Source: Nymphaea colorata | Lineage: Eukaryota; Streptophyta; Magnoliopsida; Nymphaeales; Nymphaeaceae | Direction of reading: 5' to 3' | Assembly: GCF_008831285.2 (NCBI RefSeq) | Contig: NC_045148.1 | Coordinates: 20,949,002-21,013,001, forward strand | DNA length: 64,000 nucleotides | Shown: positions 13,549 through 64,000 of the stretch, piece by piece | Numbering within the stretch: position 1 is the first letter of the stretch | Layout: each line of letters starts with the position of its first letter | The notes under the pieces: generated by a model | What the model saw: the letters and a program-made list of their open reading frames with translations, nothing else | Told to the model about the DNA's origin: nothing | Database searches by the model: none | Position numbers and translations under genes: made by a program

Positions 13549-14235
13549 AAATGAAAATGATGCAGGTCTGAATACTGCAATGTCCTAGACCTAAACTGAA
13601 CATCAAGCATGAATTCACTTGTGGCCAGCCTTAACCTCAGTACGACAGGAATGCAGGAGTACTTTTCATGTTTTGTTTGGAAATTTTCAAGAGCCCTTAA
13701 GCTCATTTGGATCAAGCTTCAAAAGAAAAAAAGCAAGTTATAGTAAGAAAACAATCTCTAGGTATGCATTGTATTGAGGAAGACGAAATTTCTCTCTACT
13801 TGGAGGTAAAATAACATTTTTGTCACCAACAAATAAGGCTCAAAATAAAAATATTTAATACCCGAAAGGGAGGTAGGTCAAAAAAAAAAATCAAAGCCTT
13901 TGTAGCCGAAAATTTTCAACTCATTTTACCCAAATAAATATTTTTAAGTGCATTTGAAAATGTTCTCTTACTTCAAAGATAAATGCACAGAGGCATTTAA
14001 TTTTGGTATACATCCAAACACGTTTTTTCAGAGAAACATCCAAACGCATCCGTAACTGCTGACAATAATAAAACATTCCCTCAAGTTTTCCATTTTATGA
14101 AGGCTGCACTCGTCCATCAGTAAAGATGGCATCAAACTTTCTGCATTATTAACTAAAAGAAAGAAAAGAAAGAACAATATGAGCTGATACTTGTTTTTCC
14201 TGTAGCACGTTTAACGTTTCCTCATTTCCCATTAC
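13549..14235 (-). other. TNL intron between NBS and LRR exons (unit A)
   Basis: It corresponds to the complete introns at 35570-36282 and 58311-59033, which run from donor CAG|GTAATG to acceptor GTTTCAG|GC on the minus strand. AT-rich with no other gene. The LRR end is lost in the gap. Confidence 0.7.
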
Positions 14236-15126
14236 CTGCTCGGCACTGAGCTTTGCTGCCGAACAATCTGTCTTCCCATGTCTCGAATTTGATCATGCAT
14301 TTCAAACTCCCCCGTCTTATCACTTATTCTGATGAGAGATTTACGCTCTAAGATTCGAATTGCAGGAATTGGAGAGTTTAGAACCTTTCCACATGGAAAC
14401 CGCATTCTTTCTGTCCTTCCCAATGAAAAAACATGCTATATCCAAGAATATGCACTTTTTTTCCTCATCAAGTCCGTCGTAGCTAATTCTCAATCTCTCA
14501 TGAACTTCTTTATCTTGGACTCTTTTCAGCTTTTCCAACATCGAGTTCCATTCGTCAAAACTTTCGATATCATAGAAGAGCGACCCAAATACTTTAAGGC
14601 ATAAAGGTAAACCACCAGCAACAGACACAACTTTCTCCGACAATTCGCCGTATTCCGGCCTTGGCTCAGGCTGCCCAAACGCATGCCAACTGAAAAGTTG
14701 AAGCGATTGGGCACAATCCAATTCTGCAAGCTTGTACATGACATGCAGCCACGAACTTAGCACCTTTTCATCTCTAGTGGTGATGATGATTCTGCTTTTA
14801 CCCCCAAACCAATCTCGACTACCAGCCAATTCGTCAAGTCGATCATTATGATCAACGTCGTCGAGAACAATGAGAACTTTCTTACCACCAATTCGCCATC
14901 TGATTTGGCTGATGCCTTCGTCCTAGTTGCTTCTACGTGTTTTATTGTCCCTGAAAATGTCAGGGAGCAGCTGTTCTTGCAAGGTGACAACGCCAATGGC
15001 ATGTGGTGATACTTCTCGGACGTTTGCAAGAAAGCTGCGGGCTTCGAAACTGGAATGTAATCTGTTATAGACTGCTTTGGCAAGGGTGGTCTTCCCGATC
15101 CCGCCCATCCCGCAGATGCCGACCAT
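14236..15126 (-). pseudogene. TNL NBS exon, unit A (nonsense and frameshift)
   Basis: Read on the minus strand, the exon starts MVGICGMGGIGKTTLAKAVY (P-loop) and reaches NKTRRSN, then a TAG at about 14923-14925 where the unit-B copy has Lys. It continues in frame with DDVD (kinase-2, the Asp typical of TIR-class NLRs), RIIITTRDEKVL (RNBS-B), VAGGLPLCLKVFG (GLPL) and FLDIACFF (RNBS-D). A frameshift near 14380 precedes EFEMHDQIRDMGRQ (MHD motif). It ends at donor CAG|GTAATG. NB-ARC domains bind ADP/ATP and switch intracellular immune receptors. No TIR exon is visible upstream, and an in-frame stop lies just before the P-loop. The matching LRR exons would lie in the gap. This is a pseudogene fragment. 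Confidence 0.85.
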
Positions 15127-16467
15127 CTACAGAGTCTCATATACTTGATTTAATAGGAATTATCTAGCAATCGATTTCAAAAAGATTCGACTTTTAAGAT
15201 TAAATTGCAAATATACAAGGCAATTGTATTTTTAAGAGTTCAAAATACTTATCCCAAACAAGAGTTTCCTTTTAAGGAATCTCATTTGTTTCCTTCTTTC
15301 TCTTTTTCTTTCCCACTCTCACCCTTTGAAGCATATTTCAAACTCTTGAAAAAACAATTTGGTTTCTACATTTACAACTTAATTTTTACCATCTGATCCT
15401 TGGTTTTGGAATTGGTAGCTCTATGATTCCCATCAAAATCTATTATACGAGTTTGACACTACTTGTTTTCATCCAAACACACACGCGACATCATAAACTT
15501 ACATTTTTTTCTTTTATATTTTAGATTTAAACAATTGGACGTCATTCTGCAATTGGATTTATAGAACGGCTTTAATATAACGAAAATGGCCTTTGAACCT
15601 ACAAACTTTTACCTACGTAGGCCTAGTAAGATTGTATCTTTGAACCCCTCACCAGCCGTCTATCAACACACTCAGCACACATAAACTTTCATTGATTTCA
15701 CGCTTGAACGACTGCTACTGAAGAGGAGAATGGGAGAGTCCCTTACTCTCTAGAGCATCTACCATGGAAAAACGTGGAAGGTTCTTGAATACCTTATACT
15801 TGTTTCTATATATGTGCTTAGCAAATATTCTTAATAATGTTTTTTATTTGGCTAATTACACGGTTTCCTGGAGGAATCTATATCAATTAGAATTTTAATG
15901 AATCATGATGATCTCAAACAGAACTGTTCTAGTACATAATATGTTTCTTTGCACGGTAAATAGCCAAAACACACGTTGAAACTAGAGAAGCATTCTTTTA
16001 AGAGTCAAAGAAAGATTGAAACTTTACTAGTGCTTGTACCATTAACTAGACCCGATTCAACATGTACCCAGTTGCCTTTCTGCATACCCCTGTACCCATG
16101 TTACTGAAGGGGCGTTTGGTAACAAGAACACTGCATTTTTTGGAACAAGTAAAATGTGAAATATCATCTTCTAAATCTCTTTCCAGATCCAATCCATTTG
16201 AGACGATACTTTAGCCTTCGACGCCAAGATTTATCACACGAGAAAAGAGATAACTGCTGATATTTCATTACTCATTGACAATGAAAGATAAATGTTTATT
16301 TCTTGTTTTCCTTTTTATATTCATAATACTGACATTCTGGGTCACTAGCCAATTACCCCAACTCGTCTCCATAGTATGGGTATTGATAAATTCATCTCTG
16401 CTTTTTAATTAAGAATTGCAATGAGTTCTTGATGATAATAGTCAGTGAATGACAATTTTGATTCTCT
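15127..16467. other. spacer between head-to-head TNL and NB-LRR, unit A
   Basis: AT-rich with no gene recognised. CTCTGTAG precedes the TNL exon on the minus strand and could be a splice acceptor for a lost upstream (TIR) exon, but no TIR-domain sequence follows. Many one-base deletions occur here relative to units B and C from about 15400 on. Confidence 0.5.
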
Positions 16468-16640
16468 AGAGTCAACCAGCCATCTAACCAAGGCCATTCA
16501 CCTGAAGTACATAGATGGTCGAGAAAAAAAAAACAAGGACAAAAAAGATATAAACTAATACTAAATGATGATAGTCATCACCTTTTTCTCCTTGTTGTTT
16601 TCTGAGATTGGATGACCATGGTTAGATGGCTCAGTGACTA
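16468..16640. mobile_element. short foldback MITE 1, unit A
   Basis: The left arm AGAGTCAACCAGCCATCTAACC pairs with the right arm, which reverse-complemented reads TAGTCACTGAGCCATCTAACC; pairing continues with mismatches inward. About 173 bp, no coding capacity. Its ends resemble those of the larger foldback element that starts 9 bp further on. Confidence 0.5.
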
Positions 16641-16649
16641 TGAAAAGTT

Positions 16650-16934
16650 AGAGTCACCCAGCCATGTAATATGCACCGTCTAATATGATGGATGGTTAAG
16701 AAAAAAGAAGAAAAAAGTGATAGGCATTTTTGTCATTTAAAATTAGTCTATATGTTATTTTCTGCTATCTAACGAAGGTCATCCATCTAAAGCAGACATA
16801 TGGTTGAGCGAAAAACAAAGAAAATAATGTGTAAACTAATATTAAATGACGAAAATGTCCATCACCTTCTTCTCTTCTTTTTTCTTAACCATTCATCATG
16901 TTAGACGGTACAAATTATGTGGCTGGGTGACTCT
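16650..16934. mobile_element. foldback MITE 2, unit A
   Basis: About 285 bp made almost entirely of two inverted arms of some 115 bp. The outer ends are AGAGTCACCCAGCCA and, reverse-complemented, AGAGTCACCCAGCCA. Inner matches include GGTTAAGAAAAAAGAAGA and the TCATTTAA/TATTAG region. No target duplication could be fixed. Such arms would give a long RNA hairpin if transcribed. Confidence 0.7.
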
Positions 16935-16948
16935 ATCTAAAAAGCTAG

Positions 16949-17060
<112 letters not shown>

Positions 17061-17798
17061 CCGATAAATAAAAATATATAAGAAAATTTAGGGACAAGAA
17101 GTCCCTAAATACAAAAACAAATCACATAAACAAAATATAAAAAGGGAATATATAAGTTAGTAGCACAATAAAACATAATAAGAGAGTGGAGAGAGAGTGG
17201 ACAGATGAAACAACAGAGTCACCCAGCAAAGATGAAGAAGGACGGTGCCGTAGCCGAATAGCAAAGTGAACACTCCCTGCACAAAGCATGCCACAGATTC
17301 CGACGATGAGAAGTGTCCCTGAAGACCCTGTTTTTTGGGTTCCTTCTAAAGAGAGAGAGAGAGAGAAACAAAGACTATGTGTCTTAAATGTGAGTCAGCT
17401 ATGACACTGCAGGGTCACCGTTTAAGTGTCTCATTCATTTTTCTTACCACGGAAGGGCCATATGAATTGGAAGTTAAGCTGCCATTGTCATGGTTCTGGT
17501 ATTATCGGTTTCGTCTTTGGGAACGCACCATGTCGCTTTCGTTAACAGGCAAAGAGCGCAACTTCTCGACCAAGAAAAAGCACAGACGACAATGCTTGTA
17601 TTCAACGTGTTAGTGCACGAAAGCCAACTGTTTACCAAACGAATCTCACAAGGATGCCTGGGTTTGGCAAATGAAACCCATTTTTTTTAGTTTACCTTCA
17701 TTTGTTTAATCTCAAAATGTCACCTCTTCCCTCTCTGCTTTGAATAAGCAAACAATAAATAATCTACATAAACGACATTCTGCATGACTACCATGTGC
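17061..17798. other. promoter-side spacer upstream of NB-LRR, unit A
   Basis: No gene recognised. It contains a short GA run (17350-17367) and an 80-codon frame with FWYYRFRLWE that has no known match and is disrupted differently in units B and C. Confidence 0.4.
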
Positions 17799-17807
17799 TA
17801 TATATAG
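17799..17807 (+). promoter_or_regulatory. TATA box of NB-LRR gene, unit A
   Basis: TATATATAG, about 93 bp upstream of a strong splice donor (AAAG|GTAAGT at 17899/17900) and conserved in all three units. It is the only good TATA near the leader exon. Confidence 0.5.
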
Positions 17808-17830
17808 TCAATCGATCAATTGTAGGATTC

Positions 17831-17899
17831 ATCTCTCTTAATTCCTCTAACTTAAATCTTGGTTCTCCTACATCGTTCTGCGTCATCTCTCTCCTAAAG
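17831..17899 (+). other. probable noncoding first exon of NB-LRR gene, unit A
   Basis: A CT-rich leader ending CTCTCCTAAAG|GTAAGT, a near-perfect plant donor. The start is placed about 30 bp after the TATA box and is approximate. It has no ATG in a useful frame. The partner acceptor is TTTGCAG at 20109. Confidence 0.45.
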
Positions 17900-20109
17900 G
17901 TAAGTAATTCAATTACCTTTTGTGATATATAATGATACTTTACATGTAATTCGTTTTATTGAGTTAAACTTAGAACACGTTGATTACTTTGGGTGGTCAA
18001 AGGAGTTTCCTTAGTTACTAATTAAACTGAACCTTAGTCTTTTGATCTTGGAGAATCCGGCAAAAGATTTGTGGTGAATTATCACGAGTCAGGACCTTAT
18101 AACAGTATCGACGTCGCCGGATTGTATACTCCGACGCTGAAATGATAGGCCGGGTAACTTGCAAAAATAGGAATAAGTTCAAGAGATTTCATGAACCTGA
18201 ATCGCATGTTCAAGGACAAGGTTTAAATCCTGTAAGGAAAACGAGATTTAATAGTTAGTTGGATTCTCCGTGGCATACGATTGGTATCTGATTCTGATGG
18301 ATATCTGAATCTAGCAACCAGTAAAGATTTGGGTCTTGTAGTTCATTTTGCTGTGAATCTGTACATCTAATAATTAATTGGATTCTATGCCCACTCGTGT
18401 CTGCTTCCGATGGATATCTGAATCCAATAATCAGTAAAGATTTGGATCTGGTATTTCACTTTGCTGTGAGTCCAAATTGAGTTTAATTACAAGTGTCTTA
18501 TCAATTTGAGTTTGATCCCTTTGGGTTTTTTGGCAATTGGAACAGTAACATACCATACTATGTATATGCTCCATAGTACACCAAACATTGACTTGGATCT
18601 CCTGGCTCCGGAACTGATTCCCATCTCCTAAACGTCTTCCCCTTGGAGAACTCTTTGTCTTAGATTATTTCATTGGATTTCGTCAGATTTATGAATTCAT
18701 ATGGCTGATTTACTACTAAATCATACTTTTGTCAAAAAAGTCCAAGATAATTTACTGCAATCCATTTTTAGGATACTTGACAGAAATCCTGTAAGCAGCT
18801 CAAAGTTTGAGTAATTTAAACGAAATTTTCCTAAATGAAACAAATCCATTCATTTGACTAATTGTGGTTGAAATTAGCTTTGGTTTTCCAAAATTAGCGA
18901 AAGATATATCAAACAAAAAAAGAAAAATAAGAGAAGTTCAAATATTTGACAACAAATTGGGGAAATGGAGTAACAATGAGGTTTCATCAGTCTTAAGAGA
19001 AAAAAAAAAACATAAGGCGTTCAGCAATAACAAAATACAAGATAATTTAAAACTCTAAAAGTATAATTAAGTAATGGCATGACACGAATCGATGCTAAAA
19101 CCATATTATTTTCCATAAATTTAATCAAATAGGTCGACTCTGGCTTGATTCCAATTGATTTAGCAACATTGGTGCGAAGCAATATAACTTGCCAAAGGGG
19201 TACCCATTTCTCACTATTATTATTACTATTGTTATTATCTTATTATTATTACCATGACCTGTTAATTTCAAATAAAATAATTTTTACTATTGTGAACAAG
19301 TCTATTTTAATCTCTTAAATTGTAACGCACGTCAGTTTGTCAATCGAATGCCTTGACCAAAAATGTAGAAACACCAAACATGCTTGCCACTCCCCATACC
19401 TTTTCTCCAACTCATTCTTAGCCATCTTAATTTACAGATTATGCAAAATTCATCGTTAACCATCTTAGTTTACAAAAAAAAAAAAATTCCTTCCTTTCTT
19501 CATGTGAGGGGAAACCTCTTGAACAAGGGTTGTAACCCTTTCCTTTCTCCTGCCCCTCATTCAAGGCTGTTTGATATACTCGTCAACTAACGTGTAGTAT
19601 TATCATTGTTGTCAAGATGTTCGATTGAGATAGAAACATAATAAGAGTGGAATAACGTGGTTCAGCTATTAGATGCCTACATCCATGAACTGAGTGATCT
19701 ATTTCACTTAATTCTCATCAGCCGAATTACAATATATTCTCTTTTATATATAGCAAAGGCTAGAACCGTTAAGCCAAATAAGAGTATAAGAGCACAGCAG
19801 CTGCCTAGAATATTAGCGGCCCATCAATCTGACCAACTACGTCAAGTTCTTCGGGCAAAAAATATCACTAGGACAAAAAAAACATCATTGCTCTCAAACC
19901 AACTATCTATCTGATGAAACGCTTAGCGAGAAAAGCAAGGACTTCCATTCCTCACCTGTACATCGTTTTTTCTCTGCCAATGTGCACGTCTTTTTACTTG
20001 AAATCGGGTGAAGAATGTGGATGGAGGAAAGACCTGACTTTCTTCATTGATGGTGTTTTTTCAAGGTTGAGATAAGTTATTAACTCATGCACATATCTCT
20101 CCTTTGCAG
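17900..20109 (+). other. leader intron of NB-LRR gene, unit A (with LTR-like scrap at 19607-19915)
   Basis: It begins GTAAGT and ends CTCCTTTGCAG, 31 bp before the ATG at 20141. At 2.2 kb it is long but plausible for a 5' UTR intron. At about 19607-19915 it holds sequence starting TGTTGTCAAGATG, with AACGTGGTTCAG and CCTACATCCATGA resembling the Copia-1 LTR phrases ACGTGGTTCGGTG and CCTACGTCCATGA. This is probably an old LTR remnant. No ORF in it looks real. Confidence 0.4.
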
Positions 20110-20140
20110 ATCTATTGACACATCCCATTCTGTCTCAGAC

Positions 20141-22052
20141 ATGAGCACATTTACCGGCATGTTACGCCATTTTAGCCTAAAGAACAGGAAAAAGGATTCA
20201 AAAATCGTGACACCAATAACGAAGAATCACAGGACAGTGAGCTTGGCCTCAACGCAAAATTGATTCTATGCTTCTTAAACCCGGCAATTCAAAAGATTGG
20301 AGTCTGGGGCATGGCTGGAACAGGCAAAACCTTGAATGTCACGACGGCACTGGGAACTTTAAATGAATTGAAAAATAAAATATTTGATTTTATCCTCTTC
20401 TTCACCGTCAAAGACGGCTTGAGAACTCTGAGAAATGATTTGATGAGGGAACTAGGCGTTATTAAGGTTGATAGTGAAGATGATGACATGAAAGCTGCGG
20501 CCTTGTTGTACAGGAGGCTGAGAGGGAAGAAGTTCCTTCTCGTCTTAGATGACTTGTGGGAAACAATCAGTTTAGAAGAGCTGGGAGTTCCTGAAACCAC
20601 CGAAGAAAATGGCTGCAAGCTCTTGGTGATCACTCGAAACCGCAAACTGTGTGACCGTATGGGCACTCAGGTTGATATCAGGGTGCCTGGTTTTACTGAG
20701 GAAGATGCATGGACCTACATCTGTGAAGCAGCCGGCGACGTCGTGAAGCAGCCATCAATCGAGCCCATAGCTAAACGAGTTGCAAAAGAATGTGATTGCA
20801 TGCCTCTTGCACTTAAAGCGACAATGGAGGCTATGGCGGGCAGAAGCGATGAGGTTTCTTGGCTGAGAATGTTGGGTGATTGGATGCACTTCAGGCCTTC
20901 AAGGCGAATCTTCGAAAAGTTGTTCCTGCGTTTGAAGTTGAGTTACGATCACTTGGAAAGTGAACTCCTAAGAAAATGCTTCTTAGCTTGTTCTTTCTAT
21001 GCAGAAAAACAGGAGGTCAATGTGATAGAACTGATACACTGGTGGATTTATGAAGGCTACATTGACCTTACAGAGGAAATGGCATTGTTGGAGGCTTATG
21101 AGAAGGGGGCTCATCTGATAGCAGATCTAAGAGATGCAAGTATGATCCAAGTTCGTGATGGAGGCCTTATTAAATTCAATGATGTGATGAGGGACCTAGC
21201 TCTAATTATCAAATCCAAAGAGTTCATAAAGAAGATCGATCAAAAGCTACTCGAAGCACCAGACAGAGAAGCATGGGAAGAAGCAGAGATGATATCACTA
21301 AAAGAAAACCAAATAACAAGCCTTGAGCAGAACCCAAACTGTCCCAATCTCACTTGCCTGCACCTCTGTAGCAACCATCAGCTGAGAAAGATCTCCCCAG
21401 AGTTTTTGAGCAAATGCCGGAACTTCGCTTTCTAGATTTGTCATGGACAGGAATTGATTCTCTGCCAAGATCAATCTCTCATCTTGTGAAGCTTCGGTTG
21501 CTTGATTTGGACTTCTGCAGGTCCTTGAGAAACATAACAGGTGTAGGGGCTCTCAAGCAACTGATCACTCTTGATCTCTCAGCCACCCCAATAGAAGAGC
21601 TACCAGTGGAAATTGGTGAACTGACTCAGCTGAGGCGCCTGCACATGTTTGCCACTGTGCATCTCAAGAGAGTTGCTAGTGGGATCTTGCCCAGACTCTG
21701 TTTTCTGGAAATCCTCAAGATGGGAGGCAGTTCCTATGCTTGGCAAAGCGAGGGCCTGGTCGGTGAAGCCAGCTTGCAGGAGCTGTTGGGCTTGAGACGC
21801 TTAGATGATTTAGCACTTGTAGTGAGAAGTGTTACTGATTTTGAATTCTTTGACCAAAGTACATCTCTACAGTCATGGAAAGATGACGTTACCATAGAGT
21901 GCAGAATCTTAGAGACGTCGACGACTATGAAGTTTGAAGGCAAATTCAACAAGTGGGAGAGCGAATTTGAGGAAGAAGACATGGTTGCCAAGATCCTAGC
22001 CGCTGCATCATCGATGGTGGATAAGTATGAAGGGTTCTTTGACAAAGCTTAA
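20141..22052 (+). pseudogene. CC-less RPS2-like NB-LRR gene, unit A (two one-base frameshifts)
   Basis: This is the same gene as the intact unit-B copy, with all NB-ARC motifs and the LRR region, but split into three frames. An A-run at 20200-20204 has 5 A against 6 in unit B, and a T-run at 21403-21407 has 5 T against 6. Between them the central frame (20260-21435) is open for over 390 codons; the last (21414-22052) gives the LRR and C-terminus. No other change in the coding part disrupts it. Single-base homopolymer losses are frequent throughout the surrounding noncoding DNA relative to units B and C. Sequence-consensus error is therefore a real alternative to a pseudogene. Promoter, leader exon and acceptor are all present. 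Confidence 0.8.
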
Positions 22053-22891
22053 TTTGGTCGAATTGACTTGGTGTTTAAAATGGGTAGTGGATTCAGAGCT
22101 TTTTCAAGGGGCTGGGAGTGAAGCTCCGGATTGCTACTGCTGAGTGGCTTTTGAGATTGAAGAACTTCTTGTTTGTGGATTGATATGTTGTTTGGCTTTC
22201 TTTTGTATGAAACTGCAGGAATGGTCTGTTTGATTTCGAATTGCAAAACGTTTGCAATGTCGTGCATAAATTAATTTGTTGAAGATTTGTATAAAGACCT
22301 TGTGTAAAAGAAAAGTTGATTTGACTAGAGCTTGCTAAGAGAAAAGAATCCATGTTGGGATCTGGTATTCAGTTCCACGTTTGACTATGAATCCAATCTC
22401 AATCCTACGCAGAACCAAAATCGAAGTACAAGAAAATGATAGATTTTAAACTAGCTTGACAAGTTTGGATTTAGTTTCAGAAAATCAATTTGGAGTCGAA
22501 CACTCGATCCACATCAAAATAGGTTTGATTCGGTTAACTTGAACTAGGTAATAGCCATATCCAAATAAAAAGTAATTTATTCTACCCCATTCATTTTAAT
22601 TGTTGCTAGTCGTTGATACTCGAAAAATGATCGACGATGTACCATATCATGTAATCTTGCACGTTGTCACAGAATCACATATAATTTGAATTCAAATCCA
22701 GAGCTTTCTTGAGACAGTCCTGCATCTCCACTCAACATCTGAATCTCCCATCTGGACTTCGGATGCACTTCTTTTAGGAAGCACAGTTATTTTTCATTAT
22801 CTTCGATCTGTCTAAAGCTGCACCTTTGGCGCCGGTGAGAAACCAAGTATCTGCAGGGAACAGAGTGCCAAGCAAACGTTTAACATCTAAA
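22053..22891. other. 3' flank of NB-LRR gene, unit A
   Basis: It probably contains the 3' UTR (the T-rich stretch to about 22300 could hold the poly(A) site, not assignable). Then AT-rich DNA up to the Copia-1 target site. No further gene seen. Confidence 0.5.
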
Positions 22892-23384
22892 TGTGTAAGA
22901 AAGAAACAAGAGACAAGTTTTTATGTGGTTCAGTGAAGCACACCTACGTCCACGAGAGAGACTCTTCCACCGTGTGTGGTGGAGAGGTTCATTCTACTAT
23001 TTATAATGTTACACTTGAGACTTCTCCTTGATTTCAGGAGAGATTATAGTCCTACCATGATTGCTCTTGCGAGCTGTACATATACGTTTCATGTTGCTAA
23101 TGTCTTGGGATTGACTTTCCCTGTTGAGTCGTTGCATTCTTGGATCCTTATTTGTAACTGTGGCCTGATTCCCTTCATCGTCATCTTCTTTAGTAACTGC
23201 CGTAATCTGCAATCTGGCTGATTTATCATTTTGTGTAATGGTGGCCTGATTTCCTTCATCGTTGCTCTGTTCTTTAGTAACTGACGTAATCGGCAGCCTG
23301 GTTGATTTGTGATTTTGTGTAACTGGCACAACAATCTTCATTCTAGTCGTTTGATGATATTGATTATATTCCTTTACCGTTTCA
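22892..23384 (-). repeat. Copia-1 3' LTR, unit A
   Basis: 493 bp, identical by eye to its counterpart in unit B. On its right side (23385-23400) is the polypurine tract, TTTGAGGGGGA when read on the minus strand. Confidence 0.93.
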
Positions 23385-52766: not shown

Positions 52767-55700
52767 ATGGTGGATAACAAAATTGATTTTGGTACTAGCC
52801 GTATGATTAGCCTAAATGGGACTAATTATAGTCTATGGAAAAATAAGATGAAAGATCTCTTATATGTGAAGGCTATGCACCTCCCTGTTTTTTCCAAAGA
52901 AAAGCCTACTTCTAAGTCTGATGAGGAATGAAAATTTGAACACAAACAAGTTTGTGGTTTCATTCGACAATTTGTGGATGAAAATATTTATAACCATATC
53001 CAAGATGAAAATCATTCATGTAGTTTGTGGGAAAAATTAGAAAATCTTTATGCCTCCAAGACAGGAAGTAGTAAATTATTTCTTCTAAAATGATTGATGA
53101 ATTTGAGATTCAGGGAGGGCAGTTCAGTGTCAGATTTTCTAAATGATTTTCAGGGATCACCAGTCAGTTATCCAGTATGGGTGTTAAATTTGAAGATGAG
53201 ATTTTGGGATTATTATTGCTTGCTACTTTGCCTGATTTGTGGGAGACATTTAGAGTCTCGCTTACTAATTCTGCAGCTAATGGGGTAGTTTCTTTAGAGA
53301 CTGTTAAGTCAGGTATTCTCAATGAAGAAATGATAAGAAAATCCCAGGCTTGCTCTTCTTAGACAAAGGTTCTTTTCACAGAGAACAGGGGGAGGAGTAA
53401 ATTCAAGAGTGACAGGGGCAGAGATAAAAGCAGAAGCAAGTCTAAATCGAGATATAAGAATTTGGAATGCCACCATTGTGGAAAGAAAGGACACATAAAG
53501 AAGTACTGCTTCCAACTGAAGAAGGAGAATAAAATTGGAGAGAAACAGGAGAAGAAAAATGACCGAGATGATAATGTCGCAGCTGCTGCACAACATGAAA
53601 TGTTCATTGTTTGTAATGCTGTCATGGTTAATGTTGCGAGAGATGATACTTGTTGGCTTGTTGATAGTGGTTCAGCTTTTCTTGTTACGTCCCATAAGGA
53701 TTTTTTCTCTTCATATATTTCTGGTGATTTTGGCACTTTGAGAATGGGTAATGGTTCTTTGTCTTATGTTGTAGGCAGAAGCGACGTCATTCTGAAGAAT
53801 GCGAATGAAGCTCTATTGAAGCTGACAGACGTGAGCATGGAAGCTTACCAGAGGTTCCTTAATTATTGCTCGAGGCAAAAGATGTAGCAATAATCTTTAT
53901 ACTATGCAGGCATCGATTTCCAGAGACATGGTACATGTGACACAAGATGAGGAATCTATTGAGTTTTGGCATAGGAGGCTGAGACATATGAGTGACAAGG
54001 GACTGAAATTCTTGATCAAGAAGAATCTTCTAGAAGATGTAAAGAAGGATAAACTTGACAAATGCAGTCATTGTTTTGCAGGAAAGCAGACGCGGGTCTC
54101 TTTCAAGAGTCATCCACCTTCCAGAAAGTCAGTAGCACTTGAGTTGGTTCATACAGATGTATGCGGTCCAATGAAAGTAAATTTACATGGTGGTGCACTT
54201 TATTTCGTTACATTTATTGATGATTTTTCCAGGAAAGTTTGGGTCTATTCTTTAAAGAGGAAAGACCAAGTCCTTGGTGTTTTTAAGGACTTTTATGCAC
54301 TGGTTGAAAGGCAGTCAGAAAAGAAGCTGAAGTGTGTTCGCAGCGATAATGGGAGAGAGTATATTGGTTTATTTGATGAGTATTGCAGATCTCATGACAT
54401 CAGGTACCAGAAGACTCTACCTAAGACGCCACCTAAGTCTCCTCAGTTGAATGGTGTGGCAGAAAGAATGAACAGGGCACTCATGGAGAGGGTTAAATGT
54501 CTTCTATCTGAAGCTAAATTATCTGATTCTTTTTGGTATGAAGCTTTGCATACTGCTGCTTATGTGATTAACTTGTCTCCACATGTTCCTTTGGATGATG
54601 ATGTTCCTAACAGAGTTTGGTATGGAAAGGATGTATCCTGTGAGCACTTACGTGTATTTGGATGAAAGGCATTTGTGCATATACCAAAGGATGAGAGATC
54701 GAAGTTAGAATAAAAAAGCAGGCAGTGCGTGTTTTTGGGTTATGGCCATGATGAATTTGGTTACATATTGTATGATCCAGTTGGGAAGAACCTTGTCAGA
54801 AGCAGGGATATGGTATTTGCTGAAGATCAGGATATTGAGGATATTCATAAAACAGTAAATGATTCTTCTCATAGCAGCTATCAGCCAGTTGATGTGGAGC
54901 CTATTCCCTTGCAGAACGCTCCAAAAGTAGTACCAGATGAGGCTATTGGGCAGATGCATGATAGAGAAGAACAAATAGACATGTCATATATTCCTAATTC
55001 AGATGACGAAGGTGACAATCATAATTTGGAGGGTTCTTCCTCAGATATAGATCGGCAGTGGAGATCCACGAGGGAGCGGCGTTCCTCAACTAGATATCCC
55101 GCACATGACTATATTTTGTTGACGGACAGTGGTGAGCCTAAATGCTATGAAGAAGCTATGCATGATGTGCACAAGGAAAAGTGGATGGAAGCCATGAAAG
55201 ATGAGATGCAGTCACTTTACGACAACCACACCTTCAATCTTGTGGAAATGCCCCAAGGCAAAAGGACATTTTGAAACAAATGCGTTTTTAGAGTGAAGCA
55301 TGATGAAAACTCTCTAAACCCAAGATACAAAGCTAGGTTGGTTGTGAAGGGGTTCAATCAGAGGAAAGGAGTTGACTTTGACGAGATATTCACACCGGTG
55401 GTCAAGATGTCGTATATCAGAATTGTTCTTAGTTTGGCAGTCAGTCTTGATTTGGAGATCGAGCAGATGGATGTGAAGATAGTTTTTTTTCATGGTGATC
55501 TTGATGAAGAAATTTACATGATGCAACCCGAAGGTTTTCTTGTGAAAGGTAAAGAAAACCATGTTTGCAGATTAAAGAAAACTTGTATGGTCTGAAGCAG
55601 ACACCTAGGCAGTGGTACAAGAAGTTCGAGTCATTTATGGGAGAGTATGACTATACCGAGACTACTTTATATCACTGCGTCTTCGTGAAGAAATTCTCAG

Positions 55701-56684
55701 GTGATGATTTTATCATTTTGTTGATTTATGTTGATGACATGCTTATCGTTGGCAACAATATATCGAGAATTTCAAGCTTGAAAAAGGAGTTGAGCAAGCC
55801 TTTTGCTATGAAAGACTTGGGACTGCTAGTCAGATTTTGGGTATGAAGACCACGCAAGATAGGAAGTCGAAGAAGCTATGGCTATCTCAGGAGAAGTACA
55901 TTGAGAAGGTACTTCAAAGATTTCACATGGACAAGGCAAAACCTGTTAGCACCCCTTTTGCACCGCATTTCAAGTTGAGCACCAAGAAGAGTCCAATGAC
56001 AGATTCATAAAAGGAAGATATGGAGAAGATTCCATATGCCTCAGCCACAAGTAGTCTGATGTATGCTATGGTATGTACTAGACCTGATATTGCTCATTCA
56101 GTTGAAGTTGTTAGTCGGTTTGTCTCAAATCCTGGAAAGAAACACTGGAAAGCAGTTAAGTAAATTTTGAGATATCTTCGTGGGACTAGCAGTTTTTCAC
56201 TTTGTTTTGGGGCAGGAAAATCTATTCTTGTTGGCTATACAGATTCAGACATGGCACGAGACAGTGATGGGAGAAGATCTATATCCATATATTTATTGAC
56301 ATATGTAGGTGGTGCAGTTTCTTGGCAATCCAGACTTCAAAAATGTGTAGCATTATCTACTACTGAAGCAGAGTTTATTGCAGCTATAGAGGCGAGCAAA
56401 GAGCTCCTATGGATGAAGAAGTTCATGCAGGAACTTTAGTTCAGTTAAGACGAGTATGAGTTTTACTGTGACAGTCAGAGTGTTATTTACCTTGGAAAGA
56501 ATTCTACCTTTTATGCAAGGTCAAAGCATATAGATGTGAGGTATCATAGGATACGTGATGTTCTAGAGTCGAGATCCATATAGATAATAATCCTACAGAT
56601 ATAATGACAAAATTTCTACCTAAAGAGAAGCATGATATGTGTAGAGACTTAGTTGGGATGACTGCCTTTAAGGCAGCATATTAA
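52767..56684 (+). pseudogene. Copia-2 gag-pol, unit B, inactivated
   Basis: Same domain order and the same early stops as in unit A (TGA after KSDEE at about 52929, TAG after QACSS at about 53361, TGA after GKRTF at about 55272). Two stops are private to this copy: TAG at about 53885 where unit A has CAG, and TGA at about 54663 where unit A has TGC. It therefore went on decaying after the duplication. The integrase core here reads VRSDNGREY and LNGVAERMNRAL. Confidence 0.9.
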
Positions 56685-56735
56685 TTTTGTTCATTTTGCA
56701 GGTATGTTTCCTCTCTTGAAGTTGGAGGGGGAGTT

Positions 56736-57370
56736 TGTTGGGTTGGGTCCAGCCTCAAGAGAAGACCTGACCCGGCCCGTCACTTAAGTGACGGGCGGGA
56801 GAAATAAAGGGGAGGGCACCCGATGGTGCCCCCCATTCTTTTCTTAGGTCTCTCTCTCTTTTAGGGTTTTCTTTTGGAAAAAGGAAAAGAAAGGGGGAGC
56901 AATTCATGTGGCTACACAACAAGAGAGAAGGAGAAGAGGAAAGGAGAGAATGAGAAGAGGAAGGCAAGGAAGAGAAGGTTGCGAGCACTTGGCTCGAGCA
57001 AAATTCGATTCCAAGAAGGAAGCCAGGCGCATCTCCTCCCAATCCATCGGTGATATTTCCCTTCTTTTCTCATATAGTTTTGATGAGATATTATTGTTTG
57101 AGGGTTGGCTTTGTATAGCCCATCGTGGGATAAGTTATATCATTGATTATAGTGGATTGAGTTTTGGTCGTAGTACCCCGTGGTTTTTACCCTCATTGTT
57201 TTTGAGGGGTTTTCCACGTAAAAATCTTCTTGTGCAGTTTGTGATTGTGATTACTTTGCTTGGATTGCTTGGTAGTTGATTCGTTGCTCATTACATGATC
57301 GATTTGGGATATATTTTGTTGTTGAATCAATTTTAGTAGATTCGTGTCCTATCCGTTTTTTATCCCAACA
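56736..57370 (+). repeat. Copia-2 3' LTR, unit B
   Basis: 635 bp; begins TGTTGGGTTGGG (one change from unit A). Preceded by GGAGGGGGAG at 56724-56733. Confidence 0.93.
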
Positions 57371-58310
57371 AGTGGGAGTTTCGGTATGCTACCAACATCG
57401 CGACATCTGCTTAAGTCGAGGCTCTCAAGTAGAGGGAAGGTGTCCAAGCCTGAGTGCAAGCCGCGGCATGCATAACTGTAGCTCACAAAATGCGGGCTGA
57501 AGTCCACGTGAGTTAACGAAGAGAGATGACTGAAGTCAGCCCCACCTGCCCACTCGAACTGCTGGCCGATGGAAGAGAAACTCCATCTCTCCAGTGAGCG
57601 GAGATGGAAGAAACTTGAAGGAAGCGCTTTCAAGAGATCAGTACCTCCCATGCTTAGCCTTTTCAGTTTCAATATACCTCCGAAGAAATCAGGGATGTCT
57701 CTGATGCCTTTGCAGCCCTCAATTGATAAGTCCTCAAGGTTTTCCAGCGATCTGATGGAAGCTGGCAAAGCAACGAGTGATCTGCATCCTTCAATTTTCA
57801 GTTTCCGGAGCCGATGGATTCCGGAATACTTGGTATCTCCCCTTGACTTATTTGGAACTCCGTTAAGGATTTCACCCTTCCGATCAGTTTCGGGAGTTGC
57901 TTCAGCGACCGGCACCGGCATAAAGATAGCAACTTCAGATTCACCATGAGCGTCACAGATTCAGGCAAACCTGTTAGATTGGTAGCGTTGAGGATGAGGT
58001 TCTTCAATGATGTCAAATTTCCCAAATTCTCTGGCAAGGTTGAAACATTGGAGTATCCGTGAAGGTCCAGCGTCTCCAAGCAACTGAAGCGAGAGATGGT
58101 ATCAGGTATTTGCTCCAGAGAAGAGCACTCTCTCAGGTTCAAGCGAACCAGGCTACGGAGGTGGCCGATGGATTCATCGACTCGTCTCAAACTGGTGCAT
58201 CCATCAAATATCAACTTGGCTACGTTCGGTATCCACCTAAAATCTGGAGTTCCCCTAAGGTTCTTGCACCGCCCAAGATCGAGGACATTCAATTGGCCAA
58301 ATGACCATGC
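57371..58310 (-). pseudogene. TNL LRR exon, proximal part (TNL-2), 13-bp deletion
   Basis: Copy of 34607-35569. Thirteen bases present in TNL-1 (GTTGGTCAAGAGG, plus-strand sense at about 35046) are missing at about 57811, flanked by GAG/GAGG microhomology. On the minus strand the frame breaks right after SIPESIG, giving two overlapping frames (58319-57798 and 57921-57349). All other repeats match TNL-1 closely. This lesion is private to TNL-2, so it arose after the duplication. Confidence 0.85.
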
Positions 58311-59033
58311 CTGAAACAACTATGAGACTCGCGTATCAGCAAAATGAAAATGATGCAGGTCTGAATACTGCAATGTCCTAGACCTAAACTGAACATCAAG
58401 CATGAATTCACTTGTGGCCAGCCTTAACCTCAGTACGACAGGAATGCAGGAGTACTTTTCATGTTTTGTTTGGAAATTTTCAAGAGCCCTTAAGCTCATT
58501 TGGATCAAGCTTCAAAAGAAAAAAGGCAAGTTATAGTAAGAAAACAATCTCTAGGTATGCATTGTATTGAGGAAGACGAAATTTCTCTCTACTTGGAGGT
58601 AAAATAACATTTTTGTCACCAACAAATAAGGCTCAAAATAAAATATTTAATACCCGAAAGGGAGGTAGGTCAAAAAAAAAAATCAAAGCCTTTGTAGCCG
58701 AAAATTTTCAACTCATTTTACCCAAATAAATATTTTTAAGTGCATTTGAAAATGTTCTCTTACTTCAAAGATAAATGCACAGAGGCATTTAATTTTGGTA
58801 TACATCCAAACACGTTTTTTTCAGAGAAACATCCAAACGCATCCGTAACTGCTGACAATAATAAAACATTCCCTCAAGTTTTCCATTTTATGAAGGCTGC
58901 ACTCGTCCATCAGTAAAGAAATGGCATCAAACTTTCTGCATTATTAACTAAAAGAAAAGAAAAGAAAGAACAATATGGAGCTGATACTTGTTTTTCCTGT
59001 AGCACGTTTAACGTTTCCTCATTTTCCCATTAC
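58311..59033 (-). other. TNL intron between NBS and LRR exons (TNL-2)
   Basis: Same canonical splice ends as the TNL-1 intron; no other feature. Confidence 0.7.
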
Positions 59034-59924
59034 CTGCTCGGCACTGAGCTTTGCTGCCGAACAATCTGTCTTCCCATGTCTCGAATTTGATCATGCATTT
59101 CAAACTCCCCCGTCTTATCACTTATTCTGATGAGAGATTTACGCTCTAAGATTCGAATTGCAGGAATTGGAGAGTTTAGAACCTTTCCACATGGAAACCG
59201 CATTCTTTCTGTCCTTCCCAATGAAAAAACATGCTATATCCAAGAATATGCACTTTTTTTCCTCATCAAGTCCGTCGTAGCTAATTCTCAATCTCTCATG
59301 AACTTCTTTATCTTGGACTCTTTTCAGCTTTTCCAACATCGAGTTCCATTCGTCAAAACTTTCGATATCATAGAAGAGCGACCCAAATACTTTAAGGCAT
59401 AAAGGTAAACCACCAGCAACAGACACAACTTTCTCCGACAATTCGCCGTATTCCGGCCTTGGCTCAGGCTGCCCAAACGCATGCCAACTGAAAAGTTGAA
59501 GCGATTGGGCACAATCCAATTCTGCAAGCTTGTACATGACATGCAGCCACGAACTTAGCACCTTTTCATCTCTAGTGGTGATGATGATTCTGCTTTTACC
59601 CCCAAACCAATCTCGACTACCAGCCAATTCGTCAAGTCGATCATTATGATCAACGTCGTCGAGAACAATGAGAACTTTCTTACCACCAATTCGCCATCTG
59701 ATTTGGCTGATGCCTTCGTCCTAGTTGCTTCTACGTGTTTTATTGTCCCTGAAAATGTCAGGGAGCAGCTGTTCTTGCAAGGTGACAACGCCAATGGCAT
59801 GTGGTGATACTTCTCGGACGTTTGCAAGAAAGCTGCGGGCTTCGAAACTGGAATGTAATCTGTTATAGACTGCTTTGGCAAGGGTGGTCTTCCCGATCCC
59901 GCCCATCCCGCAGATGCCGACCAT
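59034..59924 (-). pseudogene. TNL NBS exon, unit C (TNL-2; nonsense and frameshift)
   Basis: Nearly identical to the unit A exon: MVGICGMGGIGKTTL to NKTRRSN then TAG (about 59721-59723), then kinase-2 DDVD, RNBS-B, VAGGLPLCLKV, FLDIACFF, the shared frameshift and EFEMHDQIRDMGRQ. It shares with A, against B, the nonsense codon, Arg for Cys after SSFEA, and Trp for Arg before LHVMYK. The TIR exon is absent. Together with 57371-58310, 51886-52095 and 51371-51791 it makes up the remains of one gene. Confidence 0.87.
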
Positions 59925-61284
59925 CTACAGAGTCTCATATACTTGATTTAATAGGAATTATCTAGCAATCGATTTCAAAAAGATTCGACTTTTAAGATTA
60001 AATTGCAAATATACAAGGCAATTGTATTTTTAAGAGTTCAAAATACTTATCCCAAACAAGAGTTTCCTTTTAAGGAATCTCATTTGTTTCCTTCTTTCTC
60101 TTTTTCTTTCCCACTCTCACCCTTTGAAGCATATTTCAAACTCTTGAAAAAACAATTTGGTTTCTACATTTACAACTTAATTTTTACCATCTGATCAACT
60201 TGGATTTTGGAATTGGTAGCTCTATGATTCCCATCAAAATCTATTATACGAGTTTGACAACTACTTGTTTTCATCCAAACACACACGCATATGTATAACA
60301 TCATAAACTTACATTTTTTTTCTTTTATATTTTAGAGTTTAAACAATTGGACGTCATTCTGCAATTGGATTTATAGAAAACGGCTTTAATATAACGAATA
60401 TGGCCTTAGAACCTACAAACTTTTACCTCCGTAGGCCTAGGAAGATTGTATCTTTGAACCCCTCACCAGCCGTCTATCAACACACTCAGCACACATAAAC
60501 TTTCATTGATTCTCACGCTTGAACGACTGCTACTGAAGAGGAGAATGGGAGAGTCCCTTACTCTCTAGAGCATCTACCATGGAAAAACGTGGAAGGTTCT
60601 TGAATACCTTATAGCTTGTTTCTATATATGTGCTTAGCAAATATTCTTTAATCATGTTTTTTATTTGGCTAATTACACGGTTTCCTGGAGGAATCTATAT
60701 CAATTGGAATTTTAATGAATCATGATGATCTCAAACAGAACTGTTCTAGTACATAATATGTTTCTTTGCATGGTAAATAGCCAAAACACACGTTGAAACT
60801 AGAGAAGCATTCTTTTCAGAGTCAAAGAAAGATTGAAACTTTACTAGTGCTTGTACCATTAACTAGACCCGATTCAACATGTACCCAGTTGCCTTTCTGC
60901 ATACCCCTGTACCCATGTTACTGAAGGGGCGTTTGGTAACAAGAACACTGCATTTTTTGGAACAAGTAAAATGTGAAATATCATCTTCTAAATCTCTTTC
61001 CAGATCCAATCCATTTGCGACGATACTTTAGCCTTCGACGCCAAGACTTATCACACGAGAAAAGAGATAACTGCTGATATTTCATTACTCATTGACAATG
61101 AAAGATAAATGTTTATTTCTTGTTTTCCTTTTTATATTCATAATACTGACATTCTGGGTCACTAGCCAATTACCCCAACTCGTCTCCATAGTATGGGTAT
61201 TGATAAATTCATCTCTGCTTTTTAATTAAGAATTGCAATGAGTTCTTGATGATAATAGTCAGTGAATGAAAATTTTGATTCTCT
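59925..61284. other. spacer between head-to-head TNL and NB-LRR, unit C
   Basis: As in unit A at its TNL edge (CTACAGAGTCTC), without the B-specific segment. A few private changes at 60200-60420, for example an added CATATGTATA near 60288. No gene recognised. Confidence 0.5.
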
Positions 61285-61457
61285 AGAGTCAACCAGCCAT
61301 CTAACCAAGGCCATTCACCTGAAGTACATAGATGGTCGAGAAAAAAAAAACAAGGACAAAAAAGATATAAACTAATACTAAATGATGATAGTCATCACCT
61401 TTTTCTCCTTGTTGTTTTCTGAGATTGGATGACCATGGTTAGATGGCTCAGTGACTA
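61285..61457. mobile_element. short foldback MITE 1, unit C
   Basis: Copy of the unit A and B element, 173 bp. Confidence 0.5.
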
Positions 61458-61466
61458 TGAAAAGTT

Positions 61467-61752
61467 AGAGTCACCCAGCCATGTAATATGCACCGTCTAA
61501 TATGATGGATGGTTAAGAAAAAAGAAGAAAAAAGTGATAGGCATTTTTGTCATTTAAAATTAGTCTATACGTTATTTTCTGCTATCTAACGAAGGTCATC
61601 CATCTAAAGCAGACATATGGTTGAGCGAAAAACAAAGAAAATAATGTGTAAACTAATATTAAATGACGAAAATGTCCATCACCTTCTTCCTCTTCTTTTT
61701 TCTTAACCATTCATCATGTTAGACGGTACAAATTATGTGGCTGGGTGACTCT
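61467..61752. mobile_element. foldback MITE 2, unit C
   Basis: Copy of the unit A and B element, 286 bp, with the same AGAGTCACCCAGCC ends. Confidence 0.7.
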
Positions 61753-61768
61753 ATCTAAAAAGCTAGTC

Positions 61769-61891
<123 letters not shown>

Positions 61892-62639
61892 CCGATAAAT
61901 AAAAATATATAAGAAAATTTAGGGACAAGAAGTCCCCTAAATACAAAAACAAATCACATAAACAAAATATAAAAAGGGAATATATAAGTTAGTAGCACAA
62001 TAAAACATAATAAGAGAGGTGGAGAGAGAGTGGACAGATGAAACAACAGAGTCACCCAGCAATAGATGAAGAAGGACGGTGCCGTAGCCGAATAGCAAAG
62101 TGAACATCTCCCTGCACAAAGCATGCCACAGATTCCGACGATGAGAAAGTGTCCCTGAAGACCCTGTTTTTTGGGTTCCTTCTAAAGAGAGAGAGAGAGA
62201 GAAACAAAGACTATGTTAGTCTTAAATGTGAGTCAGCTATGACACTGCAGGGTCACCGTTTAAGTGTCTCATTCATTTTTCTTACCACGGAAGGGGCCAT
62301 ATGAATTGGAAGTTAAGCTGCCATTGTCATGGTTCTGGTATTATCGGTTTCGTCTTTGGGAACGCACGATGTCGCTTTCGTTTAACAGGTCAAAGAGCGC
62401 AACTTCTCGACCAAGAAAAGCACAGACGACAATGCTTGTATTCAACGTGTTAGTGCACGAAAGCCAACTGTTTACCAAACGAATCTCACAAGGGATGCCT
62501 GGGTTTGGCAAATGAAACCCATTTTTTTTAGTTTACCTTCATTTGTTTAATCTCAAAATGTCACCTCTTCCCTCTCTGCTTTGAATAAGCAAACAATAAA
62601 TAATCTACATAAACGACATTCTGCATGACTACCATGTGC
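61892..62639. other. promoter-side spacer upstream of NB-LRR, unit C
   Basis: Matches unit B closely; nothing recognised. Confidence 0.4.
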
Positions 62640-62648
62640 TATATATAG
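62640..62648 (+). promoter_or_regulatory. TATA box of NB-LRR gene, unit C
   Basis: TATATATAG at the same distance from the leader donor (62751/62752) as in units A and B. Confidence 0.5.
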
Positions 62649-62671
62649 TCAATCGATCAATTGTAGGATTC

Positions 62672-62751
62672 ATCTCTCTTAATTCCTCTAACTTAAATCT
62701 TGGTTCTCCTTACATCGTTCTGCGTCATCTCTCTCCTAAAGGTAAGTAATT
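62672..62751 (+). other. probable noncoding first exon of NB-LRR gene, unit C
   Basis: CT-rich leader ending CCTAAAG|GTAAGT. Its coding exon lies beyond the window. Confidence 0.45.
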
Positions 62752-64000
62752 CAATTACCTTTTGTGATATATAATGATACTTTACATGTAATTCGTTTTA
62801 TTGAGTTAAACTTAGAACACGTTGATTACTTTGGGTGGTCAAAGGAGTTTCCTTAGTTACTAATTAAACTGAACCTTAGTCTTTTGATCTTGGAGAATCC
62901 GGCAAAAGATTTGTGGTGAATTATCACGAGTCAGGACCTTATAACAGTATCGACGTCGCCGGATTGTATACTCCGACGCTGAAATGATAGGCCGGGTAAC
63001 TTGCAAAAATAGGAATAAGTTCAAGAGATTTCATGAACCTGAATCGCATGTTCAAGGACAAGGTTTTAAATCCTGTAAGGAAAACGAGATTTAATAGTTA
63101 GTTGGATTCTCCGTGGCATACGATTGGTATCTGATTCTGATGGATATCTGAATCTAGCAACCAGTAAAGATTTGGGTCTTGTAGTTCATTTTGCTGTGAA
63201 TCTGTACATCTAATAATTAATTGGATTCTATGCCCACTCGTGTCTGCTTCCGATGGATATCTGAATCCAATAATCAGTAAAGATTTGGATCTGGTATTTC
63301 ACTTTGCTGTGAGTCCAAATTGAGTTTAATTACAAGTGTCTTATCAATTTGAGTTTGATCCCTTTGGGTTTTTTGGCAATTGGAACAGTAACATACCATA
63401 CTATGTATATGCTCCATAGTACACCAAACATTGACTTGGATCTCCTGGCTCCGGAACTGATTCCCATCTCCTAAACGTCTTCCCCTTGGAGAACTCTTTG
63501 TCTTAGATTATTTCATTGGATTTCGTCAGATTTATGAATTCATATGGCTGATTTACTACTAAATCATACTTTTGTCAAAAAAGTCCAAGATAATTTACTG
63601 CAATCCATTTTTAGGATACTTGACAGAAATCCTGTAAGCAGCTCAAAGTTTGAGTAATTTAAACGAAATTTTCCTAAATGAAACAAATCCATTCATTTGA
63701 CTAATTGTGGTTGAAATTAGCTTTGGTTTTCCAAAATTAGCGAAAGATATATCAAACAAAAAAAGAAAAATAAGAGAAGTTCAAATATTTGACAACAAAT
63801 TGGGGAAATGGAGTAACAATGAGGTTTCATCAGTCTTAAGAGAAAAAAAAAAAACATAAGGCGTTCAGCAATAACAAAATACAAGATAATTTAAAACTCT
63901 AAAAGTATAATTAAGTAATGGCATGACACGAATCGATGCTAAAACCATATTATTTTCCATAAATTTAATCAAATAGGTCGACTCTGGCTTGATTCCAATT
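62752..64000 (+). other. leader intron of NB-LRR gene, unit C (runs off window)
   Basis: First 1.25 kb of the intron, matching unit B. A third NB-LRR copy is expected about 1 kb beyond the end of the window. Confidence 0.4.

Follow-up and report, generated by a model that had tools for sequence, protein, structure and literature searches.

We begin by considering a window of 64,000 nucleotides from Nymphaea colorata (NC_045148.1), to which all coordinates below refer; values above 64000 or below zero lie outside it. An assembly gap of 100 N (13449..13548) opens a contig that runs from 13549 to 78457, where a second 100-N gap follows directly, and the whole of this contig is made up of copies of one block. 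The first-pass annotation had divided it into copies A (13549-35590), B (35591-58341) and C (58342 onward), and sequence comparison bears out that these are head-to-tail copies. These limits are not unit limits, however, because 13549 is merely the base directly after the 100 N; the true junctions are at 15126|15127 (J1), 37167|37168 (J2) and 59924|59925 (J3). Read between junctions, the contig consists of the tail of a preceding unit (T0, 13549..15126, with an NLR-1 intron and a minus-strand NB-ARC exon carrying an in-frame stop), unit a1 (15127..37167, most of A plus the start of B), unit b1 (37168..59924, most of B plus the start of C, with an extra 707 bp) and the start of unit a2 (59925..64000, that is C), which runs on outside the window to 78457. 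Between T0 and the tail preceding C, a single site in 1526 differs. A 22-kb tandem NLR block is real in this assembly. The same chromosome also has, at 20.67-20.72 Mb, a fourth copy (D) and the related stretches E, G and F.

NLR-2 lies on the plus strand, and its copy in b1 (42843..44813) has an open frame of 656 amino acids, starting with the ATG at 42900 and containing NB-ARC, winged helix and LRR (PF00931 at 2.5e-32, LRR_8 at 7.9e-15, and WH_DRP at 8.5e-05, which is under its curated cut-off). The top solved chain is 9h2l, named only as an NB-ARC domain-containing protein; the next solved relatives are CNL9/Sr35 and RPP13-like protein 4, then Roq1. Approximately 50 residues separate the first ATG from the NB-ARC, and Pfam gives no match at all, neither CC nor TIR, in 42900-43100 or in the upstream ORF 42404-42670. 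Of the features of a CNL, the gene has the NB-ARC, the winged helix and the LRR but not, in the stretches searched, the N-terminal coiled-coil; the same short N-terminal start is found in NLR-3 and in the NLR-2 of F.

B, D and F each keep the 656-aa frame open, D with a copy identical to that of B. In C, whose copy is outside the window, a stop at codon 249 is the sole difference from B. In a1 (20084..22052, plus strand) the gene is that of B, broken by single-base deletions and frameshifted. Private indels of 1-2 bp are concentrated near contig ends (26 of 30 in A, 9 of 11 in C and 51 of 52 in D, with four in B), those of A lying within 6 kb of the contig start, and this noise probably disrupts reading frames in A. 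Since the indels cluster at the contig start and the frames of B and D are open, we set aside the idea that A's broken NLR-2 is a pseudogene as less likely than sequencing error. The deletion that splits the frame at 21402 is 7.9 kb from the contig start and outside the cluster, so that this reading of the break is not certain.

The second gene, NLR-1, lies on the minus strand in pieces. Its LRR exon remnant in a1 (34612..35568) is missing, at 35562|35563, about 364 bp that are present in F, and the one in b1 (57372..58319) carries a 13-bp deletion that shifts the frame. The NB-ARC exon in the tail of a1 (36388..37176), which is closest to F, is cut by J2 just before the P-loop; that in the tail of b1 (59139..59924) is cut by J3 and has an in-frame stop common to T0. 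The profiles (PF00931 at 9.4e-28, LRR_14 at 5e-35) and the best solved relative, Roq1 (5.7e-59), describe a TNL-type NB-ARC with LRR. The TIR of F (PF01582, E 2e-36) has no tblastn match in 13549-78457 with E up to 0.01, while the TIR exon of F matches two TNLs left of the window at 58-59%; the NLR-1 copies of the array are without the TIR of a TNL. The damage is threefold, with the TIR gone at the unit junction, the 364-bp piece gone from the LRR exon and a Copia-2 insertion. The array copies of NLR-1 are TNL pseudogenes.

Two retrotransposons accompany the genes. Copia-1, on the minus strand, occupies 22892..28185 in a1 (LTRs 22892-23384 and 27693-28185; TSD CTAAA) and 45653..50948 in b1, between the convergent genes NLR-1 and NLR-2. 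Copia-2, on the plus strand, occupies 29333..34606 in a1 (TSD GGTGG at 29328-29332 and AGTGG at 34607-34611) and 52096..57370 in b1, and lies in the LRR exon of NLR-1. Both elements have two LTRs with TG...CA ends and a 5-bp TSD, as Ty1-copia LTR elements do, and the domains found in their B copies, with the ORFs searched separately, follow the order rve, SH3, RVT_2, the integrase before the reverse transcriptase. As had been noticed earlier, Copia-1 with CTAAA on both sides and Copia-2 with the same TSD mismatch are at the same places in A and B. They had also been called nested, a description that we reject: the two positions are adjacent, and neither element interrupts the other. Nor are three units with both insertions seen in 50 kb, as had been claimed, for C within the window (58342-64000) has neither copia; its Copia-1 is at 67738-73034, outside the window, and C ends at 78457 before the 3' LTR of Copia-2.

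We turn our attention to the relatives at 20.67-20.72 Mb. D is a near-identical copy with its own left flank, 276 kb upstream, and ends at a 100-N gap inside the LTR of Copia-2. Over 15 kb it resembles B, with 11 BLAST mismatches, and at 37 sites D and B agree against A and C; its left flank holds another NLR and resembles the array at just 74-81%, in short stretches. Past this gap lies an older relative (E/G). E, which starts after the gap, has the Copia-1 site in common by its right edge and retains, of Copia-2, a solo LTR between perfect GGTGG duplications. In F, both copia sites are empty and both genes have open frames, NLR-1 being an open full-length gene with TIR, NB-ARC/WHD_ROQ1 and LRR. 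The head-to-tail copies and the common junction of a tandem segmental duplication are present, and unique flanks exist at D (left) and F (right, the TIR side), none being on the A-B-C contig.

The explanation that we favor, with a probability of roughly 0.7 for the whole, is a recent local tandem amplification of the 22-kb NLR block at a home locus from which the contig has been displaced. The ancestral block would have consisted of a convergent pair, NLR-2 on the plus strand (an NB-ARC-LRR gene without TIR) and the TNL NLR-1 on the minus strand, and would have been copied by unequal homologous exchange between units together with gene conversion. The likely effect is that NLR-2 gains extra copies, of which some are decaying, and that dead NLR-1 copies and the retrotransposons travel with them as passengers. 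The stop at codon 249 in C would speak against simple selection for more intact NLR-2 copies.

The first question is whether A, B and C are separate units. Because both contig ends lie inside the repeat, their copy number and position are unanchored, and both are inferred here from the assembly sequence. In a three-way alignment, A and B differ at 104 of 20041 sites, A and C at 32 of 20058, and B and C at 127 of 20061 (0.16-0.63%). It is possible, though doubtful, that the array is shorter (e.g., b-a-b) and that A-B-C represents the other haplotype of the home locus or a looped assembly, with A and C being one unit on two haplotypes or read twice. The contig ends fit such an assembly, as do the few A-C differences, which fall mostly within about 2 kb past the junction and at the noisy contig end and leave a longest substitution-free run of 12.5 kb; D and B are likewise almost identical. 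Against it, C has 24 private substitutions, 5 of them in the noisy last stretch, and of the 12 C-private sites in the first kilobase past the junction, 7 agree with the F unit and 4 with A, B and D. Moreover, J1/J3 and J2 types occur in one contig, which, provided that the contig is right, makes three or more units in a row likely.

Given separate units under the favored amplification, how were they joined? A J1-type junction, in which the P-loop end of NLR-1 is joined to the start of the next unit, precedes A and C and also lies between G and F (J0), so that the units with a right end that has been read are without the TIR. The bases of J0 are those of J1 and J3, and J2 is different. At J2, the start of b1 carries a 707-bp insert (37168..37874) that A and C do not have. 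Its sequence from 37180 onward corresponds to the flank linking D to its left neighbor gene, and TGGAATATTCATTA at 37169 is a templated filler, a repeat of the 14 bases found at 37194. The two sides of the unit junctions have no similarity at the join. With this and the filler, unequal exchange, the mechanism named earlier, is not supported as the only one, and the left flank and filler of J2 point to end joining besides homologous exchange. End joining may have produced J2, perhaps when a break at J1 was repaired with a copy of D's left flank. The filler resembles polymerase-theta-type end joining with templated insertions (PMC8654963) in that a short insert at a tandem junction repeats nearby sequence; here it is a single plant junction, and the pathway is suggested by its bases.

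The breaks that J1 and J2 make in NLR-1 are no more than three bases apart, which is unexpected from two independent events and counts against our explanation as it stands. This coincidence would follow if a unit junction were a recurrent break point, as in a variant that we regard as unlikely, in which growth proceeds by two-unit blocks of 45 kb (b-a-b-a) and repaired breaks at old junctions give rise to new ones. A break at a unit junction would then be repaired by copying the outer flank of the array and end-joined with templated filler.

As for position, the most likely home of the A-B-C contig is the gap that separates D (C11:20686657) from E (C11:20686758), the order at the home locus would probably be D-A-B-C-E/G-F, and the place of the contig in this window is probably a scaffolding error. 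That the array truly sits in the window, having been copied from the locus at 20.67 Mb as a second, dispersed array, is improbable. The assembly's own placement favors it, and two other TNL genes lie at window -36 to -11 kb, with NB-ARC 42-44% identical to NLR-1. However, the contig has no unique flank on either side, D and E stop at a gap exactly where the A-B-C sequence is needed, and T0 matches a b-type tail that D is without. A comparison of the contig's neighbors (-20000..13448 with 78558..100000) gives simple-repeat matches only, among the 30 matches listed, and so speaks neither for nor against these neighbors being contiguous without the contig. The earlier description of a clean example of three units is not supported as worded for a contig without flanks, with gaps at both ends and a probable home 276 kb away.

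Within the favored amplification, the insertions can be ordered against the duplications. The LTR pair of Copia-1 differs at 25 of 493-494 sites (K 0.053) and that of Copia-2 at 30/629 to 31/632, with 5-6 indels (K 0.049-0.051). Homologous LTRs of A and B differ by 0, 2, 5 and 8 substitutions. K is 0.049-0.053 for LTR pairs and 0-0.013 when homologous LTRs are compared among A, B and C, which makes the duplication younger than both insertions, as had been proposed; in support, both insertion sites recur in the independent and more divergent unit E and are empty in F. Separate insertion of the copias into each copy after duplication, for which we find no supporting point, is refuted by the same site, TSD and TSD mismatch in A and B, by homologous LTRs that are nearly identical while LTR pairs differ by 5%, and by both insertion sites in E.

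The ordered distances are 0.049-0.053 for LTR pairs, 0.046 for the dS of NLR-2 between B and F, and 0.021 for the Copia-1 right LTR between E and A. The LTR K is above the F-unit K (0.013-0.042) in the NB tail, LRR, NLR-2 and spacer segments, but not in the first kilobase past the junction, where the F-unit K is 0.042-0.052. An LTR K above that of the F unit fits only with faster LTR change or gene homogenisation, and it counts against our explanation. Between E and A, the Copia-1 interior is at 0.014 and the spacer at 0.032, and the NB tail of F is closest to the tail of a1 (0.013); the closeness of E in the interior and of F in the tail means that conversion blurs the order of events.

Copy distances differ segment by segment. 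Among A, B and C they are 0-0.006 in the NLR-2, spacer and Copia-1 segments and 0.015-0.038 in the first kilobase past the junction, and the NB tail of a1 is at 0.013-0.014 from the other two tails. D, A, B and C differ little, and their differences are strongly mosaic. Between A and B the longest substitution-free run is 6984 bp versus a maximum of 2263 in 5000 random placements, so that the copy distance is not supported as a simple clock; with mosaic copies it is a lower bound on age only.

Head-to-tail multiplication is the ordinary growth mode of NLR gene clusters, and the block described here is ordinary in kind and a well-resolved example. The account of Theobroma cacao NLR clusters (PMC12405883) describes copy number rising by local tandem or proximal duplication over short times. 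NLR number grows here by local duplication as well; unlike that account, one block is here resolved to its junctions with its insertions ordered, and an uninserted relative unit and a solo LTR are at hand, while the array ends are lost in gaps. At the RGA08 locus of wild banana (PMC3017797), as here, NLR paralogues show unequal recombination and sequence exchange, with LTR elements in the cluster. In its treatment of these retrotransposons, the RGA08 study reports no evidence that they took part in unequal recombination; here, by contrast, the amplified unit carries the elements with it, and one of them is now a solo LTR. Full-text literature searches, made without the species name, returned no description of the locus.

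The array gives a base-level view of NLR cluster amplification, in which NLR-2 is multiplied, partly with open frames, and a destroyed linked TNL rides along. The uninserted F and the solo LTR of E allow the insertions and duplications to be ordered without a molecular clock. For draft assemblies it carries a warning, as NLR arrays may be gap-cut, falsely frameshifted at contig ends and misplaced. In searches for further unit copies, the query 17600-20100, with all of its 11 candidates scored, has 14 matches, of which four are near-identical (A, B, C and D). With 40 of 121 candidates scored, 30000-31500 has at least 78 matches, three at about 100% (A, B and C), and with 40 of 104 scored, 34608-37167 has at least 53, seven of which are on C11 at 96% or more.

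We begin with the three units A, B and C, which start at 13549, 35591 and 58342 of the window (C11:20949002-21013001). Self-comparison pairs 13549-15126 with 35591-37167, 15127-37167 with 37875-59924 and 13549-19156 with 58342-64000, all head-to-tail, as the first-pass annotation had claimed. In the fetched flanking sequence, unit C runs on as far as 78457 and is cut off there by a 100-N gap; a second 100-N gap lies immediately 5' of 13549. The array is therefore a single 64.9-kb contig that lacks unique sequence at either end. Sections of two publications describe NLR expansion driven by local duplication (PMC12405883) and an NLR cluster with unequal recombination and sequence exchange (PMC3017797), so that, as far as those sections go, this kind of array is already known.

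Searching the genome (407.8 Mb, 783 contigs) with unit DNA gives a fourth near-identical copy, D, 276 kb upstream (C11:20671634-20686657), equivalent to 37180-52246 of B; it has almost all of the 707 bp absent from A and C. Its left neighbour, NLR-3, is another gene resembling NLR-2, the plus-strand NB-ARC-LRR gene of the unit (protein 49% identical), and its right end is a 100-N gap within the left LTR of Copia-2, one of the two Ty1-copia elements inside the unit. Past the gap, a stretch E starts at 20686758 and matches the right part of the unit at 94-98%. The match of E to NLR-1, the minus-strand TNL-type gene, stops at the homologue of 35292, and a further stretch, G (20708111-20709996), begins at 35288, so that the two appear to be parts of a single gene, interrupted by about 15.7 kb. 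The insert (C11:20692428-20708111) has GTTGA on both sides and the ends TGTTGG...CCAACA, and by these edges resembles an LTR element. G terminates at the bases of junctions J1/J3 of the array, and unit F follows.

D ends and E starts within the unit, at a gap, and both ends of the A-B-C contig also lie within the unit, at gaps. Setting the contig between D and E would give D-A-B-C-E/G-F, with NLR-3 as the left flank and a right end that retains a TIR; we put the probability that this is the real order at about 0.8. In a four-way alignment, 37 sites unite D and B against A and C, and by these sites two unit types, b and a, alternate as b, a, b, a in the order D, A, B, C. T0, the tail of the preceding unit before A, is of the b type and differs from the tail preceding C at a single site in 1526, as would be expected if A follows D. 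Less probably, the contig is an alternate haplotype, or a looped assembly of a shorter array.

Turning to divergence, a three-way alignment has A and B different at 104/20041 sites, A and C at 32/20058, and B and C at 127/20061; B alone departs from the other two at 93 sites, C alone at 24 and A alone at 8. These substitutions are unevenly distributed: the longest substitution-free runs are 6984 bp for A-B, 12486 for A-C and 3709 for B-C, against maxima of 2263, 6441 and 2212 in 5000 random placements. The unevenness implies that sequence was exchanged between copies or that amplification was stepwise, and in either case the mean copy distance underestimates the age of the first duplication. 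Distances among A, B and C are 0-0.006 across the NLR-2, spacer and Copia-1 segments and 0.015-0.038 in the first kilobase past the junction, while in the spacer the distance of D from A and C, noise counted in, reaches 0.012. Next to a long AT microsatellite whose length varies between copies lies a fold-back element about 290 bp long (16646-16938; 39413-39703 in B; 69-bp arms, 88% complementary). Private 1-2 bp indels fall within the first 6 kb of the contig for A (26/30), the last 2 kb for C (9/11) and the last 7 kb of D (51/52), with four in B; we read this concentration at contig ends as residual long-read errors. D and B differ at 61/14991 sites, 49 of them private to D, and all but one of these sit in short runs near D's contig end, where its private indels fall, which leaves about a dozen differences (11 by BLAST).

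In both Copia-1 and Copia-2 the integrase precedes RVT_2. The LTRs differ within the pair at 25 sites for Copia-1 (493 bp) and at 30/629 for Copia-2, plus indels, and homologous LTRs of A and B at 0, 2, 5 and 8 sites, close to the earlier manual counts. The conclusion drawn from those counts, that the duplication is younger than both insertions, stands and gains support independent of any clock. Both copia sites are empty in F (read directly, without joining); E has Copia-1 at the same site as the array (right edge read), and at the Copia-2 site of the array it has a solo LTR of that element, flanked by perfect GGTGG duplications. The order of events runs from F, lacking both copias, through E, having both, to the almost identical D, A, B and C. 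The LTR pairs (0.049-0.053) are near the NLR-2 synonymous divergence from F, and the Copia-1 right LTR differs by 0.021 between E and A. By segment, F differs from the units as follows: NB tail, 0.013-0.026; LRR, 0.016; NLR-2 block, 0.023; spacer, 0.037-0.042; first kilobase, 0.042-0.052. Set against the LTR pairs, these values mean that LTRs evolve faster or that the genes were homogenised.

At J1, J3 and the G/F junction J0, ...CCGACCAT is joined to CTACAGAG..., while at J2 ...CCGACCAT is followed by TGGAATATTCATTA at 37169, a repeat of the same 14 bases at 37194, and then by the left flank of D. No similarity is found between the two sides at the join, and the founding events therefore look like end joining, not homologous crossovers; later spread of same-junction units would fit unequal exchange. 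The left break of J2 is at most 3 bases from that of J1. J2 may have arisen when a break at J1 was repaired with the flank of D as source and closed by end joining, which would account for the near-identical breakpoints. Templated end joining is reportedly the subject of a further publication (PMC8654963).

NLR-1 has an LRR exon and an NB-ARC exon whose nearest match is Roq1 (5.7e-59); its array copies are dead. No TIR match is found for it in the whole A-B-C contig, the LRR exon lacks about 364 bp and carries the Copia-2 insertion, and the tails in T0 and b1 (the J2-J3 unit) have an in-frame stop. The tail in a1 (the J1-J2 unit) is free of that stop, yet is cut at the P-loop as in the other tails. 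This tail (36388-37176) is 0.013-0.014 from the two others, and F is its nearest relative (K 0.013); taken with the missing stop, this suggests that F was the donor in a conversion. The TNL of F has a TIR (2e-36) and an NB-ARC (1.4e-31) with WHD_ROQ1, and its LRR frame runs uninterrupted over 533 aa.

NLR-2 has an NB-ARC (2.5e-32), LRRs and a weak winged-helix match, with neither CC nor TIR detected in the parts scanned. B and D carry the same open frame of 656 aa, F also has an open one of that length, and in A the frame is shifted. In C (C11:21013930-21015897, window 64929-66896) the sole protein difference is a nonsense change at codon 249, distant from the noisy contig end. Between B and F, dN is 0.013 and dS 0.046 (637 codons), a sign of constraint as judged from these rates; for the LRR piece of NLR-1 the values are 0.017 and 0.023 (318 codons).

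Beside the array, a 3.75-kb unit present three times (2477-13448, copies 97-98% alike) forms a second tandem array that also reaches the gap at 13449; the unit contains a fragment of a SABATH-type methyltransferase (PF03492, 6.1e-20). Left of the window (-39477 to -11060; C11:20909524-20937941) are two TNL genes that share a 3.2-kb duplicated piece (93%), their NB-ARC 42-44% identical to NLR-1 and their TIR 58-59% identical to that of F. Contig C13 has many distant NLR-1 relatives at 11.3-15.8 Mb, mostly at 65-73% DNA identity among the matches listed, and this region is probably another large TNL cluster.
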